Part shown: in pieces, positions 194-41,524 of the stretch | Numbering within the stretch: the first letter of the stretch is position 1 | Layout: every line of letters begins with the position of its first letter | Source: a virus | Virus record (IMG/VR): IMGVR_UViG_3300042865_000346 | Span: 1 to 41,524 of that record | DNA length: 41,524 nucleotides | Direction: 5' to 3' (one strand) | Program-made: the position numbers and the translations under genes | The notes under the pieces: generated by a model | What the model saw: only the letters and a program-made list of their open reading frames with translations | What the model was told of the DNA's origin: nothing | Database searches by the model: none

Positions 194-1864
194 TTAAGGA
201 CAAACTTTATTTTTAATATCTGAGTTACAAGGATCAAGATATGCAATTAATCCATCTAGTCTAAATACAAATCCTCCTATTTGTGTTTCAAGACCGGCAT
301 TACAACTAAAAGGATATGTAAAAGAATTATATTCTACATCAACAGCTAAAGTTCCACCACCAGGTATATTTGCACTATGTATTTGTGTATTTGGACTAAG
401 AAAATTAGGAACTTCTTGTCCGCTTAAAACATTACTTGTAATGTATCTTAAATGTGATGAACCTAGTTGAGCAGGATTCTGAACAGTACTTGTATATTCT
501 AAATCTTTTAAAACAGCTGCATATAACTTTTTATCTGATGCTATACCTACTGATAAAAGTGCCGATAAAGCAGTACCATATCCTCCACCTAAATCAATTT
601 GTCTTGTAGCAACAACCCAACCTAAAGTATATGTTCCATCAAAATTAGTTAATGTGTCTACAACACTTGTTTTTATAACAGAAATATCATTATTAAATAC
701 AATAGATCCATTAGTATTTATATAACAACCACCTGTTCCTGAAAAAGTTGTAGGAGATGTAATTGAGTTATAAGAAGTAGCTGTATAATTAGCAGGATTT
801 GTTGGACTAACTGGATTTGGAAGTGGTACAACTACTAAACCTCTAAAATGTATTTGATTTCCTATTCTTCTACATTGAGGTTTGTCAACTCCTGAATAAA
901 AATCAAAACCGTTTAATTCAACCCAACCTGTATCTTGTATTTTAGCTGTTAATATATTTGAAGTATAATCTAAATTTATTGATGTTGTATCTTGTGTTGT
1001 AATTGATACATTTAAATTACTTAAATAATCATACATATCACATAATGCAATCCATAAATTATTAATGGCATCTGCTGCAGTAACCGGTGAATCATTCCAA
1101 GTTCCAAATCCTGTATATGGTCCATATGCACTGCTAAAGGTATCTCCTGGATTAGCTAATGAATCATCTGTACCTGTTATACATTGTGTAGCTACAGCTG
1201 AAAGAATATTAGCTGGTAAATCTGTTGCAGCAATTAATGCACAATAACCTATTGTACTATCATTTACCAAGGTATTTAATATTGTATCAATTGGTGCTTG
1301 AGTTAAGTTGGTATAAGGTGCTGATAAATACTCAGATAAACAGCCAGTATCTATTGATGGTAATGTAAATGTTGGCGGAGGAGTGTTTTCTAATACAGTA
1401 ACTCTAATATCTAGATTTGTAATTTGATTGTTTATGATATCTATTTGATCTAATATACTACAGATTCTATTTGCTATCATTTGTACATAGTCTACTAATT
1501 GCATAGTAGTTTGTGTACCTTCAATAAAACATGGAGCTACTGAAACAACACAATCAGGGCATCCAGATGATTTGACTTCTGTAGGGGTTATTCCGTTTAG
1601 CTCACATATTTTAGTTATGAGTAATTGTATAAGAGCTTGAAAATCTTCTGGAGGACATGCATTAATACCTAAACAAGTAAGATCATAGTTACTTACTTTT
1701 AACTGATCCATAATAGTACATAACTCAGTACCAAGTTTTGCAACTATATCTGATACTGTATCTCCAGTACATAGTTTAATGCATGGAATATCTGGTCCCT
1801 GCCAAATAACGCAGTTACTTGATATTGGGCTACATGGTCTATTATCTAAGTTTAATGGTTTCAT
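194..1864 (-). CDS. Putative tail fibre/virion protein (556 aa)
   Basis: The protein opens with a Cys-rich module (residues about 10-105, several spaced Cys, motif CVIWQGPDIPC) shared with the truncated gene to its left. A helical stretch around 130-160 looks like a short coiled coil. The rest is Thr/Asn/Ser-rich beta sequence typical of phage fibres, with a segment near 325 (DTGWVELNGFDFYSG) of the kind that begins fibre tip domains. No enzymatic motif is visible. It is the last complete gene of the structural block and is preceded by a candidate late promoter at 1881. Role as a host-contact or head-surface fibre is inferred. Confidence 0.7.
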   Translation of the reverse strand: MKPLNLDNRPCSPISSNCVIWQGPDIPCIKLCTGDTVSDIVAKLGTELCTIMDQLKVSNYDLTCLGINACPPEDFQALIQLLITKICELNGITPTEVKSSGCPDCVVSVAPCFIEGTQTTMQLVDYVQMIANRICSILDQIDIINNQITNLDIRVTVLENTPPPTFTLPSIDTGCLSEYLSAPYTNLTQAPIDTILNTLVNDSTIGYCALIAATDLPANILSAVATQCITGTDDSLANPGDTFSSAYGPYTGFGTWNDSPVTAADAINNLWIALCDMYDYLSNLNVSITTQDTTSINLDYTSNILTAKIQDTGWVELNGFDFYSGVDKPQCRRIGNQIHFRGLVVVPLPNPVSPTNPANYTATSYNSITSPTTFSGTGGCYINTNGSIVFNNDISVIKTSVVDTLTNFDGTYTLGWVVATRQIDLGGGYGTALSALLSVGIASDKKLYAAVLKDLEYTSTVQNPAQLGSSHLRYITSNVLSGQEVPNFLSPNTQIHSANIPGGGTLAVDVEYNSFTYPFSCNAGLETQIGGFVFRLDGLIAYLDPCNSDIKNKVCP

Positions 1865-1880
1865 ACTTTTACTTATTATT

Positions 1881-1889
1881 ATAATATAC
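1881..1889 (-). promoter_or_regulatory. Candidate late-promoter element
   Basis: The minus strand reads TTAGTATATTATAATAA here, 17 nt upstream of the 556-aa gene. The core GTATATTAT is shared with elements before the fibre, lysis and scaffold genes. This is sequence recurrence only; the start of transcription is not known. Confidence 0.4.
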
Positions 1890-1895
1890 TAATTA

Positions 1896-4319
1896 TTATT
1901 GAGAATTACAAGTTTTAGGACTACTGTTACACCCGCACCCACATGTAGAAGTATTATTACAACATGATTGTACCGGAGTGCATACATAGTTTGGATCTAC
2001 GGCTCCTTGTAAATCAGCTAGTTCTTTTTTAACAATCCATCTTTCTCCAAGGTCTACATCCGGACAACAGTTACTAATACCATATCTTTTTTCAAGAACA
2101 GTTTTATATAGTATTTCAGATGATTTACATGCAAACTTTTCATATTTTTCTGGATCACAAGAAGGTGTTGAATATCCCGGTTTTACTTTTCTTTTTGGAA
2201 GAGGTTCTACCGGACATTGATTATTTATACAATCTCCAAAGTGTTCAATATATACTAATGCTTCTTCTTCCGGAGTTAGTACCCAATTAATTAAACATAC
2301 TTTATCACTTGTTTCATTTGGTTGCAGATTAATAGTTACTTCTTCAAATAAACAATTTAAGTATATAAAGTCTTTAGCTATAGTATCTTGATTTGTAATT
2401 TTATTACATACACATGGGAATGTTTCTAAGCATTCTGGACAATCAATAAATGAATCTGTTACAGTTACTATACCAGCATTAATTGGTTCTCTAGTTTCTT
2501 CTACTGTAAAACAACTATCACATCCTTTAATTTTTATTACTGGAAGTGCAGTACATTCAGTTGTTACAAGATTTTCTACTTCAAAATCACCACCATCATA
2601 AACCCAATTATTAGATATAGGACATTCAGTATCTGCACTATTTATATAAGCATCACTTCCGTTTATGAGAAAACTCCAAACTAAACCAAATCCACCACCC
2701 CATGAAATATTTATATCACTATCATCTAATCCGTCAATAGTTATTCCACCTAAAGTATATTGATTTTTACCATTTGTAGTATCTGTTTTAGGCACATCAA
2801 ATTCATAATCAATACCATCATAAGTAAACGAAACATGAATACAATCATTACAACTTACTGGTGAAGGTATAAGTGAACTTAAATCAGTATATGTATATGT
2901 TACATTATTTGGATCTAAACAGTCTGTAAGTTTATAGTAAGTTCTATTACATGCTAAACAACTATCAAATGTAAATAGTATAGTAATTGGCTGAGTAGCC
3001 GGAGGCATGTAATCTATTAGAGTTACAAACCAACACTCTCCACAATCTAATTCTACAGTCTTCCCTACATATGCTGAGTAATCATCTAAACTGTATCTTA
3101 CTATAGTTTGATTGTTACAGTTAGTAAACTTATAAGCTATTATTGGTAAACAAGATGGACAGTCATCAAATACTTGTAGTATAGTTACATTAACGGGACA
3201 TTCACAATCTTCTGATAATTCAATAGTCCAACAACCATCATAACCATTTAATGTAACTACTTTATTTTGAGATGCATACTGAGATATGTTTGGAGTATTA
3301 GATACAACTGTCAGTGTCTCTGATGTTAAACAGTTAGTAAATAAATAACATAAATCTACACATTCATTATTAACACAAGGACCATAGTTAGTAACTTCTC
3401 CTGTACCGCCCATAACAATTGGAGGTACTATAGAACAAAATTTACTAGCACCTAATATTTCTTGAGTTACTTGATCTTCATCAACATAAAGTATTATTGT
3501 TGGAGTTCCTGTAACTTCATAACATTCATTAGGACAGTCTGGTTGTAGGCCAGATGCTGTAACTTGTAATGATGAAAAATATGATTCTGGATCACAAGGG
3601 GCATCTGTTTCAATAACATACCAGTCTCCTGGAATAGGTTGATAGTCTTGATCATTTATATTAATAAACTGACCAATATATAGTGATAAGTTAGTATTAG
3701 TATAAATTATAGTACCATCACACTTTGTTAAAAGAAAACATTTTTCTACACACAGCGGGCATTCCACTTGATATGTTTCATCAGTACAATCAATTGTAAT
3801 ATCTGTTGGTCCTGTATAGTTAGAAGCATTTGGTGCTAATGGTAAAGCATTCCACATAGTATTATCTACTATGGGTCCTATACCTACAGCAACTGTATCT
3901 ACTCTATAACAAATGTTTTCTAATAGATATGTTGGAGCTCCTGTGTATTCTTTAAGTCCTAGTAAGTAACCACCATCTTGTGTAGACTTAAAATATATTA
4001 ATGAATTATCACAACATTTTTCAAAAATTAAATATCTATTATCTGATGCACAAGGACATGGTTCTGTAAGGCAGTCTCCTAATGTTCTTGTTAAATCTGT
4101 GTCAGGTAATATTGCTCCAGTAGGTGTTCCACCTGTACCTACTTTAATTATTTGATAGCATTGACCATTTTCCCATTCAAACCCATTATCAGGATCAATA
4201 TATGTTGGACCAGAATATGTATAAGTACCTGTAGGAATATTTACTGTACTTTGAAATTCTCCAAAAATTCTAGTATCACAACATGATACAACTCTATATA
4301 GGTATGAGGTTCCAGCCAT
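1896..4319 (-). CDS. Large Cys-rich repeat virion protein (807 aa)
   Basis: The protein is built of tandem beta-rich units of about 65-100 residues, each opening with an aromatic-hydrophobic-x-x-C pattern such as CYLFTNC, AYKFTNC, YYKLTDC or CFLLTKC and closing with a Cys pair such as DCPSCL or SCLACN. Dozens of Cys are conserved in spacing, which suggests metal binding or disulfide-stapled repeats. The C-terminal domain (about 690-790) has a separate Cys pattern including NCCPDVD and ends in a CGCGC cluster. No signal peptide or catalytic motif is seen. It lies two nt before the zinc-ribbon gene in a Cys-rich virion block. A structural or adhesin role is inferred; the exact function is unknown. 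Confidence 0.65.
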   Translation of the reverse strand: MAGTSYLYRVVSCCDTRIFGEFQSTVNIPTGTYTYSGPTYIDPDNGFEWENGQCYQIIKVGTGGTPTGAILPDTDLTRTLGDCLTEPCPCASDNRYLIFEKCCDNSLIYFKSTQDGGYLLGLKEYTGAPTYLLENICYRVDTVAVGIGPIVDNTMWNALPLAPNASNYTGPTDITIDCTDETYQVECPLCVEKCFLLTKCDGTIIYTNTNLSLYIGQFININDQDYQPIPGDWYVIETDAPCDPESYFSSLQVTASGLQPDCPNECYEVTGTPTIILYVDEDQVTQEILGASKFCSIVPPIVMGGTGEVTNYGPCVNNECVDLCYLFTNCLTSETLTVVSNTPNISQYASQNKVVTLNGYDGCWTIELSEDCECPVNVTILQVFDDCPSCLPIIAYKFTNCNNQTIVRYSLDDYSAYVGKTVELDCGECWFVTLIDYMPPATQPITILFTFDSCLACNRTYYKLTDCLDPNNVTYTYTDLSSLIPSPVSCNDCIHVSFTYDGIDYEFDVPKTDTTNGKNQYTLGGITIDGLDDSDINISWGGGFGLVWSFLINGSDAYINSADTECPISNNWVYDGGDFEVENLVTTECTALPVIKIKGCDSCFTVEETREPINAGIVTVTDSFIDCPECLETFPCVCNKITNQDTIAKDFIYLNCLFEEVTINLQPNETSDKVCLINWVLTPEEEALVYIEHFGDCINNQCPVEPLPKRKVKPGYSTPSCDPEKYEKFACKSSEILYKTVLEKRYGISNCCPDVDLGERWIVKKELADLQGAVDPNYVCTPVQSCCNNTSTCGCGCNSSPKTCNSQ

Positions 4320-35819: not shown

Positions 35820-36017
35820 TTATTTTATATCTCTACCAAATGTTAAATTATTTTTTGCACGGATATCTTTATGAGTAAACTGCCAGAACTCTCCGGTAGC
35901 TGTAATAATAACAGTATAGATAGTATCAGTTTCATGCCCGTAGTCAGTAATAAGCCAGATGATCCCCGGACCTTTGGGTGTGTTTACCTCTACTCTATTG
36001 GTGGGTTCATACATCAT
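35820..36017 (-). CDS. Small beta-barrel protein, unknown (65 aa)
   Basis: The sequence alternates short strands (RVEVNTPKGPGIIWLI, DTIYTVIITATGEFWQF), compatible with an SH3-like barrel. It overlaps the transferase-like gene by 11 nt, starting with tandem ATGATG. A second TATATTTG box at 35808-35815 lies just past its stop. Function unknown. Confidence 0.6.
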   Translation of the reverse strand: MMYEPTNRVEVNTPKGPGIIWLITDYGHETDTIYTVIITATGEFWQFTHKDIRAKNNLTFGRDIK

Positions 36018-36681
36018 ATCCTGTGATGTTTATATTTTCATCTCTTGTTACTAAAGCTTTGTAAAGATCAATATCAGTTGACCATTCTTTACCTGTCCAG
36101 AACTCAAACCCTGAATAGTTAGCTTTATACTCACAGCACTTTTCATATCCACCTAAGAGATACACATACTCACAGTTCAAAAGTTTTGCAGTTTCACATT
36201 CCATCATCTGAGCTATGGTACCCAGAGAAAGTTTTGGATCTTGGTAATCCCATATAAACTGATATGCTACAAACTGTGTCTCAAACTGTCTGTACAAACT
36301 GATACCAACCAGGGTATCTGCCCAGTATTCTATAACCTGACAATCTTTAAATGACTCAAGCTTTATGTCTCTCTTAAAGTTGTGATAACTGCAGTACTTG
36401 TTATACAGCTCAGTATAAGCTTCTAGGTTAGCTTCAAGATTACCATTTTCAACTATGATTTTTTTGGATAGCTTCTTGGTAGTTTTGCTAGGTTTATAGT
36501 GAGCTAAGTTTATCCGGGTGCTGCGTTCATTATACCACTTACCCTCCCATGGTATCCATCCTTGTAGTAATGCATCTGTGGAAGATTCATTAGGTTCAAG
36601 AATCCCGTATGCACAGTTGATAATTAACTCCAGGTCACTTACTTTACCAAAGCCTTGGACATGATCAAAGTATACTTTCAT
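36007..36681 (-). CDS. Aminoacyl-tRNA-protein transferase-like (ATE/Bpt family, 224 aa)
   Basis: The C-terminal half follows the catalytic GNAT domain of arginyl/leucyl-tRNA-protein transferases: QFIWDYQDPKLSLGTIAQMM (141-160; family pattern YDPxLxxxSLGT), YVYLLGGYEKCCEYKANYSG (172-191; family YVYLGYWIxxCxKMxYKAxF) and FEFWTGKEW (192-200). The N-terminal half has GWIPWEGKWYNERSTRINLA (41-60), where the family shows a Cys-containing region and a C/S-x-P-x-R element. The usual N-terminal Cys pair is absent, so catalysis or tRNA binding may differ. Such enzymes add an amino acid to protein N-termini and can mark proteins for degradation. Context and length (family about 230-250 aa) agree. Confidence 0.7.
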   Translation of the reverse strand: MKVYFDHVQGFGKVSDLELIINCAYGILEPNESSTDALLQGWIPWEGKWYNERSTRINLAHYKPSKTTKKLSKKIIVENGNLEANLEAYTELYNKYCSYHNFKRDIKLESFKDCQVIEYWADTLVGISLYRQFETQFVAYQFIWDYQDPKLSLGTIAQMMECETAKLLNCEYVYLLGGYEKCCEYKANYSGFEFWTGKEWSTDIDLYKALVTRDENINITGYDV

Positions 36682-37137: not shown

Positions 37138-37352
37138 AAAAAAACCCAGACAGTATTTCTTGATCAGAGAAACTTATCTGGGGTTGTTACTAGTTATACA
37201 TGTTGGTACCATGCTTTCCCAGTAACCAAAAAGTCCAGGTATAGTGAGCAGATCTTACGGTATGCTGTCTGGAACTTGGCCTATGTCTATCTCAACACAG
37301 GGGGGAACAACTTGTTCTGAGCGGGCATGATGACCAGAGGCCGAACAAGTAC
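37138..37352 (-). ncRNA. Probable small structured RNA (about 215 nt)
   Basis: A TATCTTTG box (37365-37358) precedes the region. It ends in a terminator whose stem pairs AACCCAGA (37143-37150) with TCTGGGgTT (37177-37185), followed by seven T on the minus strand. Within it CTTGTTC (minus strand, near 37350) can pair with GAACAAG about 30 nt on. GC content is clearly higher than in surrounding genes. No convincing ORF, tRNA or known class is seen. Confidence 0.55.
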
Positions 37353-37462: not shown

Positions 37463-37566
37463 TGTTGCTACAGGAACCAAACTGAAACAAGCTGTAGAAA
37501 TAAACTTTTTTCTGCTGTGGAAAAAACACCGCTTGTAACTGTAGTAGAATTTTAAAACTTAAGACT

Positions 37567-37749
37567 ATGATAAAATCTATTCAGTATGTATCAATTGGTT
37601 TGATGATCACTATGTTTGTAGAAGGTATACTTACTTATGGAAGAGCATTTGATATCAGTAATTATGGCGCGTTTGCTTGGTTTGTCCAACTTGTAATAGT
37701 TACTGCAACTGTGACAACTGCATTAAGAATTAAAGAAGAGGGGAAGTAA
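37567..37749 (+). CDS. Small membrane protein (60 aa)
   Basis: Two hydrophobic segments are seen (VSIGLMITMFVEGILTYG, about 8-25, and FAWFVQLVIVTATVTTAL, about 36-53), with a basic/acidic tail. It is the first plus-strand gene. Its stop codon lies in the loop of a terminator-like hairpin (GGGAA-gtaa-TTCCC). Function unknown. Confidence 0.65.
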   Translation: MIKSIQYVSIGLMITMFVEGILTYGRAFDISNYGAFAWFVQLVIVTATVTTALRIKEEGK

Positions 37750-37758: not shown

Positions 37759-37780
37759 AGATTTGAACCATACTGCTTAG

Positions 37781-37839
37781 AACCATAGTGAATGTTGCTA
37801 CGCAACAGGCTTTTATTCTCCGCTTTTAACTGCAAGGGA
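37781..37839 (+). ncRNA. Repeated 59-nt RNA motif, copy 1
   Basis: This 59-nt segment aligns without gaps to 38316-38374, with 41 of 59 positions identical. The conserved blocks are AACCAT, GTGA, GGCTT, CTCCGCTTT, AACTG and AGGGA. The hairpin TGTTGC-tac-GCAACA becomes TAAGCC-tgc-GGCTTA in copy 2, so four of six pairs change on both sides. It lies in the gap before the 127-aa gene, 39 nt from its start. A duplicate GAACCATA lies just upstream (37765-37772). Regulatory leader or processing signal are options. Confidence 0.75.
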
Positions 37840-37878
37840 TTATTGTTTTATTTATTAACTTTTTAAATTTTTAGCATT

Positions 37879-38262
37879 ATGGCAAAATTTGAATTTAAAC
37901 CGGAAACAAACCCAAACACCGGTGAGAGAATGTTTGTAGCAACTATGCAAGGTAAACTTGTATCTATTGCTACTAATCCACTAAACAATGCAAACGACAA
38001 TGCATTTTACCCTGCAACAGTAGAGTATGAAAATGCAGAAGGTGTTAACACCAAGTCAGGTTGTTTAGTGTATAAAAACAATTATGATTATGGAATGTCT
38101 GTAGGAACAACCTACTTAGGCAAAGTAATTGTAATGGCAGGTAAAGAGCCTTTACTTGTATTGTCTCACTTAGACCGTGCTAGTCAAGCTACTGTTGCTG
38201 ACTTTGGGTTTGATTTGTCTCTCTTGGAAACAACAGACTTTGACGCTGTTCCAAAGAAATAA
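37879..38262 (+). CDS. Beta-rich protein, unknown (127 aa)
   Basis: Mostly beta sequence (FVATMQGKLVSIATNPLNNA, TVEYENAEGVNTKSGCLVYK, TYLGKVIVMAGKEPLLVLSH) with a short acidic tail. The strand pattern could be an OB-like barrel, so a nucleic-acid-binding role is possible, but no motif proves this. It is bounded on both sides by copies of the 59-nt RNA motif and followed by a strong terminator. Confidence 0.6.
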   Translation: MAKFEFKPETNPNTGERMFVATMQGKLVSIATNPLNNANDNAFYPATVEYENAEGVNTKSGCLVYKNNYDYGMSVGTTYLGKVIVMAGKEPLLVLSHLDRASQATVADFGFDLSLLETTDFDAVPKK

Positions 38263-38275
38263 CATTTCGGGGATT

Positions 38276-38305
38276 AACCTCACACTGGATGTGTGGGGTT
38301 TTTCC
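38276..38305 (+). terminator. Rho-independent terminator of the 127-aa gene
   Basis: AACCTCACAC (38276-38285) pairs with GTGTGGGGTT (38291-38300) over ten pairs including one T-G, with loop TGGAT and a following T run. It lies 13 nt past the stop. Confidence 0.9.
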
Positions 38306-38315
38306 TTTTTAATGG

Positions 38316-38374
38316 AACCATTGTGATTAAGCCTGCGGCTTAGGCTTGATTGCTCCGCTTTGAACTGTTAGGGA
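38316..38374 (+). ncRNA. Repeated 59-nt RNA motif, copy 2
   Basis: The aligned second copy, with stem TAAGCC-tgc-GGCTTA. It comes directly after the terminator and opens the long gene-free region, so unlike copy 1 it is not followed by a coding start within 1 kb. This suggests that it is part of, or marks the 5' end of, the large structured RNA. Confidence 0.75.
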
Positions 38375-39400
38375 GTTGTGCAGTAGATTAAACTACACGG
38401 TCATAGTAAGTCATAGTATGATATATTATTAGATTATACTATTAATGCACACACACTTCATACTTGACGGTTACTGTATTGGTAAAAATTATACAAAGAT
38501 GTGTGAGAAACTAAGTGTGAGTGACAACCTTTCGGTCATATTAAAGGTATTGTAACAGCTGTAAAATTAGCACATTCTTATTATTATATAATATAGCTAA
38601 CACATACAGCAAGCACTACTCACACACATACCTACACTACTAACACTATATCTATTACTCTTATTAGTTAGTATTAGTGTTAGTGTTTCACAGTAAAAGC
38701 TTCCGGGAAAGCTATATTTTCCGGTCATATATAGAAAAAGCAAAGGGATTTTAACAGAGTGTCTTTTATTCCCTTAACTGTCTAACTAACAGTATTCAAA
38801 GACGGGTCAGTAGTATAATTGGGATATAATTGTAGTGATTATATGGATATTATGTGATAACTCCAACGGCTCTATTAGTATTAAGTCCTATTGTTTAGCA
38901 TAGTTAACACAGCAGATAGGCATTAACTGTATTCCTGAGTATGAATCAAAACTACTCATTTTATATCACAAGGTTTCAGGCATAACCTCTCATCCTGTAA
39001 AGCAGGGGTTGACTTGTGATATATATACTCTCATCCAAGCAGGTAATGTGAGGCTACCAGAAATGGTATCCTGCTATAAATGTATCACATACTTCAAGGG
39101 TTGCAACCTTGTGAGAGTACGATAAAGTGCACCACTATGTGCTAAAAAGTGTATGTTATATGGCCTGAGAAACCATATGATGAAACAAACTAGGGGAACA
39201 AGACTGAAATAGTAGCAATACTATTTGAATGAACAACCTAGAACATTAGTCATACCGTTATGCTCCCTAACGGCCTGTGCGAGATAGTGAAACTAAGTTT
39301 GGCTGCAAAGACACAAACATATCTATCCGAGCTGTATTCCTTACCTCAATTTGGACAATGCAGGTTACAACGGGTGTGTAGGATAATCACACCCTTTTTT
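38375..39400 (+). ncRNA. Candidate giant structured RNA (about 1 kb)
   Basis: No convincing ORF exists here. At least ten hairpins are seen, including ACTAACACTA/TAGTGTTAGT (38639-38648 with 38675-38684), ATATCACAAG/CTTGTGATAT (38963-38972 with 39013-39022), TACTCTCA/TGAGAGTA (39026-39033 with 39112-39119), a GAAA-capped stem (39055-39068), a GCAA-capped 8-bp stem (39207-39226), ATATGG/CCATAT (39158-39163 with 39173-39178), CTAGG/CCTAG (39190-39194 with 39237-39241) and CCGTTA/TAACGG (39255-39260 with 39268-39273). It ends in a strong terminator. The size and hairpin density recall GOLLD- or ROOL-type phage RNAs, but no class can be assigned by eye. Confidence 0.65.
39372..39400 (+). terminator. 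Terminator closing the structured region
   Basis: GGGTGTG (39372-39378) pairs with CACACCC (39388-39394), followed by six T. It lies 23 nt before the next start, so it ends the RNA rather than serving a gene upstream. Confidence 0.85.
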
Positions 39401-40833: not shown

Positions 40834-41524
40834 ATGAACAAAAAAATTAAAACATTCTATACTGATAAGCAAGTATGCTTTGACAGTATTAAAGAGAGTT
40901 CTTACTCTCAATCACCTTTAAAACCTTATTTGTTAATGAAAAGGTTTGCGGAAACTGGTTATGATGAATTACTGGATGTTGACGGTAGTTTTAAACCAAT
41001 CAAAAGACAAGACTTTCATATTGCTCACACAGAACAATATGTGGACAATGTCTATACAGGCACAGGTAACTACAGAAGCAATTCATTACCTTGGTCTAGA
41101 AACTTGGTAGATAGTTTACCATATACAACAGGTTCATTATATGCTGCAAGTAAATGGGCATTAGAGCATCCTGAACAAATTGCATTTGCTCCAGTTTCAG
41201 GTATGCATCACGCACAACCTGAACACGGTGGTGGTTTTTGCACTTTCTCTGGTCAAGTTATCTCTGCTATTAAAATCTATCAAGAAACAGGTAAGTCTTG
41301 TGCTTATCTTGATCTTGACGGTCACTTTGGTAACAGTATTGAAGACACTAGAGATTTCAATCCATTATTAAACAAAGCAATTCCAGAAGGTTGTAACATA
41401 AATCCAGATTATGCTGATGCAGTTTATGTGGATGACTTTAGAGAAAAACTATTTGAACTAGCTCAAAAGATTATCAATAATGAAATTCATTATGTGGTCT
41501 TTGCTCACGGTGCAGATAGTCACT
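40834..41524 (+). CDS. Histone-deacetylase-fold hydrolase, truncated at right edge
   Basis: The first 230 residues lie in the window and the stop is beyond it. The arginase/deacetylase fold motifs are in order: HTEQYVDNV (65-73), GMHHAQPEHGGGFCTFSG (123-140) with the His-His dyad at 125-126, YLDLDGHFGN (158-167) with zinc ligands D162 and H164, and FAHGADSH (223-230) with a third ligand, D228. All expected catalytic residues are present, so it is probably active. Substrates in this superfamily include acetyl-lysine, acetylpolyamines and other acetylated amines; the phage substrate is unknown. The start follows a TTTATTCACTT leader. Confidence 0.85.
   Translation, partial: MNKKIKTFYTDKQVCFDSIKESSYSQSPLKPYLLMKRFAETGYDELLDVDGSFKPIKRQDFHIAHTEQYVDNVYTGTGNYRSNSLPWSRNLVDSLPYTTGSLYAASKWALEHPEQIAFAPVSGMHHAQPEHGGGFCTFSGQVISAIKIYQETGKSCAYLDLDGHFGNSIEDTRDFNPLLNKAIPEGCNINPDYADAVYVDDFREKLFELAQKIINNEIHYVVFAHGADSH

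Follow-up and report, generated by a model that had tools for sequence, protein, structure and literature searches.

Two related 59-nt segments in the early region of a crAss-like phage were each found to hold a short conserved box and, about 10 nt upstream of it, a small hairpin with a variable stem. With about even confidence we read each copy as a composite early promoter, consisting of the box and an upstream DNA hairpin and most likely used by the giant DFDxD virion RNA polymerase of the phage. The box (CTCCGCTTTTAACT and relatives) would be the sequence-specific promoter element of the early gene array, and the variable stem would be extruded under negative supercoiling as a small DNA hairpin. 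On the template strand, the extruded hairpin would expose a C(GNA)G triloop and so recruit or activate the early polymerase. It would mark two outputs of the array: with copy 1 a gene for an SSB-like OB-fold protein, and with copy 2 a long noncoding region.

The window, the whole stretch of DNA analysed here, is an entire IMG/VR virus record of 41,524 bases. It belongs to a crAss-like phage of the Crassvirales, as a profile search of the window matched the Crassvirus major capsid protein (PF23898, E 2e-30) and a PHROG search matched the portal and terminase (phrog_6547 and phrog_6681). Leftward genes start near 37139 and rightward early genes near 37568, and the region is therefore divergent. 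On the rightward side, small genes follow one another in an array that is shared with G002 (near-identical to the window), L206 (about 75% identity), G006 and many other relatives. Most genes in the array end with a terminator-like hairpin and a T-tract, followed by the short box, which in the arrays of relatives lies about 17-48 nt 5' of the next ATG.

The first-pass annotation had aligned 37781-37839 with 38316-38374 without gaps, and the alignment was reproduced with 41 of 59 positions identical; when the same noncoding DNA was resampled 12 times with a Markov model, the best self-match between 59-mers reached 32-35. The identical blocks that it had quoted were all present in both copies, and the compensatory change in the stem was confirmed. 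Copy 1 has the hairpin TGTTGC-TAC-GCAACA (37793-37807, plus strand, like all features of the two copies) and copy 2 has TAAGCC-TGC-GGCTTA (38328-38342), with four of the six pairs differing on both sides and the outer T-A pair and loop-closing C-G pair unchanged. The copy 2 hairpin has an L206 orthologue, TGTTCC-TGC-GGAACA. By direct reading, an upstream block precedes each hairpin: GAACCATAGTGA at 37780-37791 in copy 1, with a similar GAACCATACTGCTTA just before it, and GAACCATTGTGA at 38315-38326 in copy 2. Both blocks are also found in L206, and the copy 1 block is absent from more distant relatives. Each hairpin is followed by a 10-nt spacer (GGCTTTTATT, 37808-37817; GGCTTGATTG, 38343-38352), in which (G/S)CTTNT is conserved 3' of the copy 1 hairpin. 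Then comes the box, a putative early promoter element (CTCCGCTTTTAACT, 37818-37831; CTCCGCTTTGAACT, 38353-38366).

The gene context was also as described: copy 1 lies 5' of an ORF of 127 aa (37879-38262) and copy 2 lies 5' of a noncoding stretch of about 1 kb. A terminator-like hairpin with a T-tract (38276-38309, plus strand), seen by folding 38250-38390 and by direct reading, separates the 127-aa gene from copy 2. In agreement with the remark that the motif is not a recognised RNA, an Rfam search gave no match at the gathering score. The window holds only two full-length copies, and the 3' part has a further relative, absent from the earlier annotation, CACCGCTTGTAACT at 37527-37540 (plus strand), 5' of the first rightward early ORF (about 37568) and with orthologues in G002 and L206. 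The box is thus repeated more often than the hairpin. Directly 5' of this first box is an AT-rich hairpin, TTTTTTC(TGCTGTG)GAAAAAA (37506-37526, plus strand), which is not of the TNC-triloop type and has an L206 orthologue with a compensating pair. Single-sequence folding of the two copies was unimpressive (z = +0.35 for copy 1 and -1.58 for copy 2); the evidence for the hairpin is comparative.

The box reads CWCCGCTTKTAACT in the window, G002 and L206, and varies by lineage (CARCTTTTATTG in G006 and G007, ACAGCTTTTTACT in G016, ACATCTTTTTACTT in G025 and G011, AACTTCTTTTTACT in L320). Its position is best explained by a role as early promoter element, because terminators lie just upstream of it and its distance to the ATG is variable. 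A role as ribosome-binding element was rejected, as this distance varies and one box precedes noncoding DNA. A sister lineage (L208, L289, L302, L308, L310, L312, L318, L337) carries an AACCCT-type box behind pyrimidine-rich tracts, and no TNC hairpin was seen in the relatives with this box. The pattern CTCCGCTTTNAACTG was also run over viral contigs; besides the near-identical L120, it gave matches that have no common hairpin context and look like chance.

The hairpin recurs in relatives, usually twice per genome. We scored the best hairpin upstream of each box in nine related arrays, after removing a duplicate box call in G006. A TNC-triloop hairpin was located 5' of 16 of the 18 boxes that are the last two of their arrays, as compared to 1 of the 64 others (Fisher p = 6e-14), and the gap between hairpin and box was 10 ± 1 nt in the last-two set and 11 ± 6 nt in the others (Levene p = 0.0006; three last-two gaps were taken by eye from the nearer hairpin), both p-values being descriptive only, since the contrast and the array labels were set after the pattern had been seen and the related contigs are not independent. 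One of the 16 cases (L320) is a terminator-like hairpin, and the nearer hairpin in L320 has a TTT loop. Both failures come from L325, also with a TTT loop. The last-two loop in G011 is TATC, and in some lineages the stems have only 3 bp. Most early boxes are without a TNC hairpin. In a less selected, gene-anchored count, a C(TNC)G hairpin of at least 3 bp was present upstream of 15 of the 16 genes for OB-fold family members. The noncoding C(TNC)G hairpins of at least 4 bp found in a scan of the relatives all belonged to early arrays, pointed the same way as the early genes and had CTT a few nucleotides 3' of the stem, whereas coding matches in the same scan were scattered over both strands. 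An explicit loop-and-stem rule thus separates the array sites from the rest. One relative (L330, oriented early region 1600-3500) has at least four copies of a GCC-TNC-GGCAG hairpin, including one with the loop TCC, and two OB-fold genes.

For scoring covariation, 26 distinct sequences were aligned at their centres. The inner five pairs gave 0.662, as compared to 0.181 ± 0.040 for shuffled sequences and at most 0.298 for slid partners, and each of the five was changed on both sides somewhere in the set. The percentage of paired positions is inflated, because the sequences were partly picked for having stems, and the informative part is the variety of compensating arms: AAGCC/GGCTT in copy 2 and GTTCC/GGAAC in L206, TGCC/GGCA and TGGC/GCCA in G025, and TTGCC/GGCAA and TTTCC/GGAAA in L343. 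The first-pass annotation had allowed that copies and covariation might be confined to the two segments in the window; both extend far beyond it. It had also taken the preserved pairing as strong evidence that an RNA folds here. The hairpin is indeed real, conserved and covarying, but the RNA conclusion does not follow from it, as a DNA hairpin would be expected to covary just as well. Covariation of a stem between phage genes need not point to RNA.

We infer that the hairpin acts as DNA because it lies between a terminator and a promoter-like box, keeps a near-fixed distance to that box, and follows the loop rule of the template-strand hairpins of phage N4: a coding-strand C(TNC)G reads C(GNA)G on the template. 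In the N4 early promoters, the C:G loop-closing pair and the 5' G and 3' A of the template loop are required for hairpin extrusion, the non-conserved stem bases are free provided that pairing is kept, and SSB melts the hairpin of the other strand while the template hairpin persists (PMC4496689). N4-like Pseudomonas phages have stems of 4-5 nt and 3-nt loops at three early promoters (PMC3715699). As a control, our rule with stems of at least 5 bp was applied to the first 12 kb of N4. It returned exactly three matches, 5' of gp1, gp2 and RNAP1, in agreement with the three early promoters in the leftmost tenth of the N4 genome. In the first of these, the P1-position hairpin GTTGC-TTC-GCAAC, all five stem pairs are those of the copy 1 inner stem.

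Both copies have the N4-type structure, with a 6-bp stem around a 3-nt loop (N4 type, about 4-7 bp), and the N4-type template loop, C(GTA)G in copy 1 and C(GCA)G in copy 2, with C:G closure, 5' G and 3' A. The base-specific contacts of the N4 enzyme are only partly present. Where N4 has the central template-loop purine (-11), copy 1 has T and copy 2 has C; the template -8G is found in copy 1 (GC-TAC-GC), but not in copy 2 (CC-TGC-GG) or most relatives; and in place of the template +1C, 11 nt past the loop centre, both copies have a coding T (37811 and 38346). For this reason we do not class the element as an N4 vRNAP promoter, and propose by analogy that it may work like one. N4 and other Schitoviridae share with the phages studied here two or three small hairpins per genome 5' of early genes, variable stem arms around a C:G-closed 3-nt loop with template G and A, a T-rich TTNT past the stem, and a giant virion polymerase encoded by the phage. 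They differ in that the polymerase here is of the DFDxD type, with no T7-like one detected, stem length ranges over 3-7 bp, and the hairpin is coupled to a separate box about 10 nt downstream. The Thermus phage P23-45 has a two-barrel RNAP with a fold related to that of the crAss-type enzyme; the early promoters of this RNAP likewise have a short conserved motif, but no hairpin is mentioned for these AT-rich virion-RNAP promoters (PMC10770324).

The hairpin could instead act as RNA, at the 5' end of both the OB-gene mRNA and the noncoding RNA, stabilising the transcript or binding a protein through a UNC loop, with transcription starting at a promoter further upstream, perhaps the GAACCATNNTG block. 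Covariation and a strand-specific loop come naturally to an RNA, and this block does lie 5' of both copies in the window and in L206. Yet the GAACCAT block is missing in distant relatives, and the hairpin starts only 0-8 nt past the T-tract of the preceding terminator in G025, G016, L286 and L347, which leaves no room for a promoter upstream of it. Many other early genes, moreover, have the box alone. A UNCG RNA tetraloop was rejected, since the GC-TNC-GC class would place its pairing out of register, and nothing points to a ribozyme or a ligand aptamer. On balance we regard an RNA role as rather unlikely. Computed DNA energies were identical for the coding and template hairpins, the parameter set used being one that does not separate the strands.

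The hairpin with its T-rich tail could also be a second terminator, an insulator that would shield two strong promoters from read-through. The intrinsic terminators of the same array also consist of a hairpin and T-rich sequence 5' of a box, and the TNC hairpin, which comes after a terminator and is followed by CTTNTT, is placed like a hairpin with a T-tract. In the array terminators, by contrast, the loops are different, the stems longer and the T-tract stronger, and the next box follows at a variable distance. The stems of the TNC hairpin go down to 3-4 bp, the T-run past the stem (CTTTTATT or CTTGATTG) is weak, the C(TNC)G loop is missing in 63 of the 64 other array hairpins, and the distance from the TNC hairpin to the next box is near-constant; we find this explanation improbable. 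That the copies are a recent duplication with drift, with fortuitous pairing, agrees with the presence of only two full-length copies in the window, but is contradicted by the comparative data and was rejected as hardly credible: both copies have orthologues in G002 and L206, and positional equivalents with independent compensating arms occur in divergent phages.

For the composite promoter, the candidate polymerase is a DFDxD enzyme, which we infer to read the hairpin-box element. The window contig is a fragment that lacks the giant polymerase ORF, and larger relatives encode an ORF of 3,830-4,613 aa with the DFDxD motif. This motif is a hallmark of the crAss-type virion RNAP, and in phi14:2 the enzyme was shown to carry out early transcription that resists rifampicin (review PMC10136315). 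The T7-like RNAP profile PF00940 had no match in 17 relatives, a search in which the control, the N4 vRNAP itself, matched only weakly. The giant ORF gave no match against PDB sequences. No sequence of a promoter used by a virion RNA polymerase of crAss-like phages turned up in a literature search, with the primary phi14:2 paper outside its scope, and the element supplies concrete 60-bp templates of a candidate one. In G006, a 2OG-Fe(II) oxygenase domain (PF13532, E 8e-11) is also found close to the C-terminus of the giant DFDxD ORF (L268 6348-20000). The adjoining 2,405-aa ORF (L268 1-6345) matches Sigma-70 region 3 marginally (E 1.4e-5, slightly over the cut-off) and is a possible promoter-recognition part. 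As a broader and more tentative proposal, for which our confidence is well short of even, this crAss-like lineage may use supercoil-extruded C(GNA)G hairpins as early promoters read by a two-barrel DFDxD virion RNAP, converging on N4 with an unrelated enzyme, and one of them may drive an SSB-like protein with a possible feedback on hairpin activation. Hairpin promoters, familiar from N4 and related phages, would in that case have arisen a second time, with a polymerase unrelated to theirs.

The 127-aa protein downstream of copy 1 has no Pfam or PHROG match. Its predicted structure is an OB-like fold (mean pLDDT 81.5), and the best solved structural neighbours are mostly SSB and PriB (E about 0.005-0.03, TM-scores near 0.4), so that on the predicted model it resembles SSB/PriB at the fold level only. 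Since host SSB activates the N4 hairpin promoters, an SSB-like product of the copy 1 gene is suggestive of a possible role in hairpin activation. The link between hairpin and OB gene is not universal, as the gene that follows the hairpin in G025 and G011 encodes another small protein.

In the noncoding stretch past copy 2 (window 38960-39130), the modules AGGTTTCAGGCATAACC... and AAGGGTTGCAACCTTGTGAGAG are conserved across relatives. Such modules were found in L240, L245, L264, L272, L286, L289, L290 and L320, and relatives also carry TACAACTGAGTGCAGAGGG. From their sequence, these modules look like parts of structured RNAs. Past the structured noncoding region in G011 lies a gene for a 461-aa DUF2828/DUF7788 protein (L245 7758-9143), and one of the early genes of crAss001 is annotated as encoding a TROVE protein. 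Proteins of these kinds may be linked to the noncoding RNAs.

In the parts scanned of phi14:2, crAss001 and Lbo-JY46, one 6-bp C(TNC)G hairpin each was found; with about 1.9 hairpins of at least 5 bp expected per 100 kb, these are at chance level and were not counted as evidence. An exception among the few distant Crassvirales scanned is the Bacteroides crAss-like phage DAC15 (L368 about 48299, MT074136), with a noncoding 9-bp hairpin, GTTCAGTGC-TTC-GCACTGAAC, that lies in the terminal repeat and points along the adjacent small genes. Elsewhere in the window, an arginyl-tRNA-protein transferase C-terminal domain (PF04377, E 3e-8) is encoded at 36007-36681 on the minus strand and is conserved in G006. 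The ORF at 40834-41524, which runs off the contig end, presumably encodes a protein resembling the histone-deacetylase/acetylpolyamine-amidohydrolase type, and relatives of it were found in 34 viral contigs, some of 250-270 kb.
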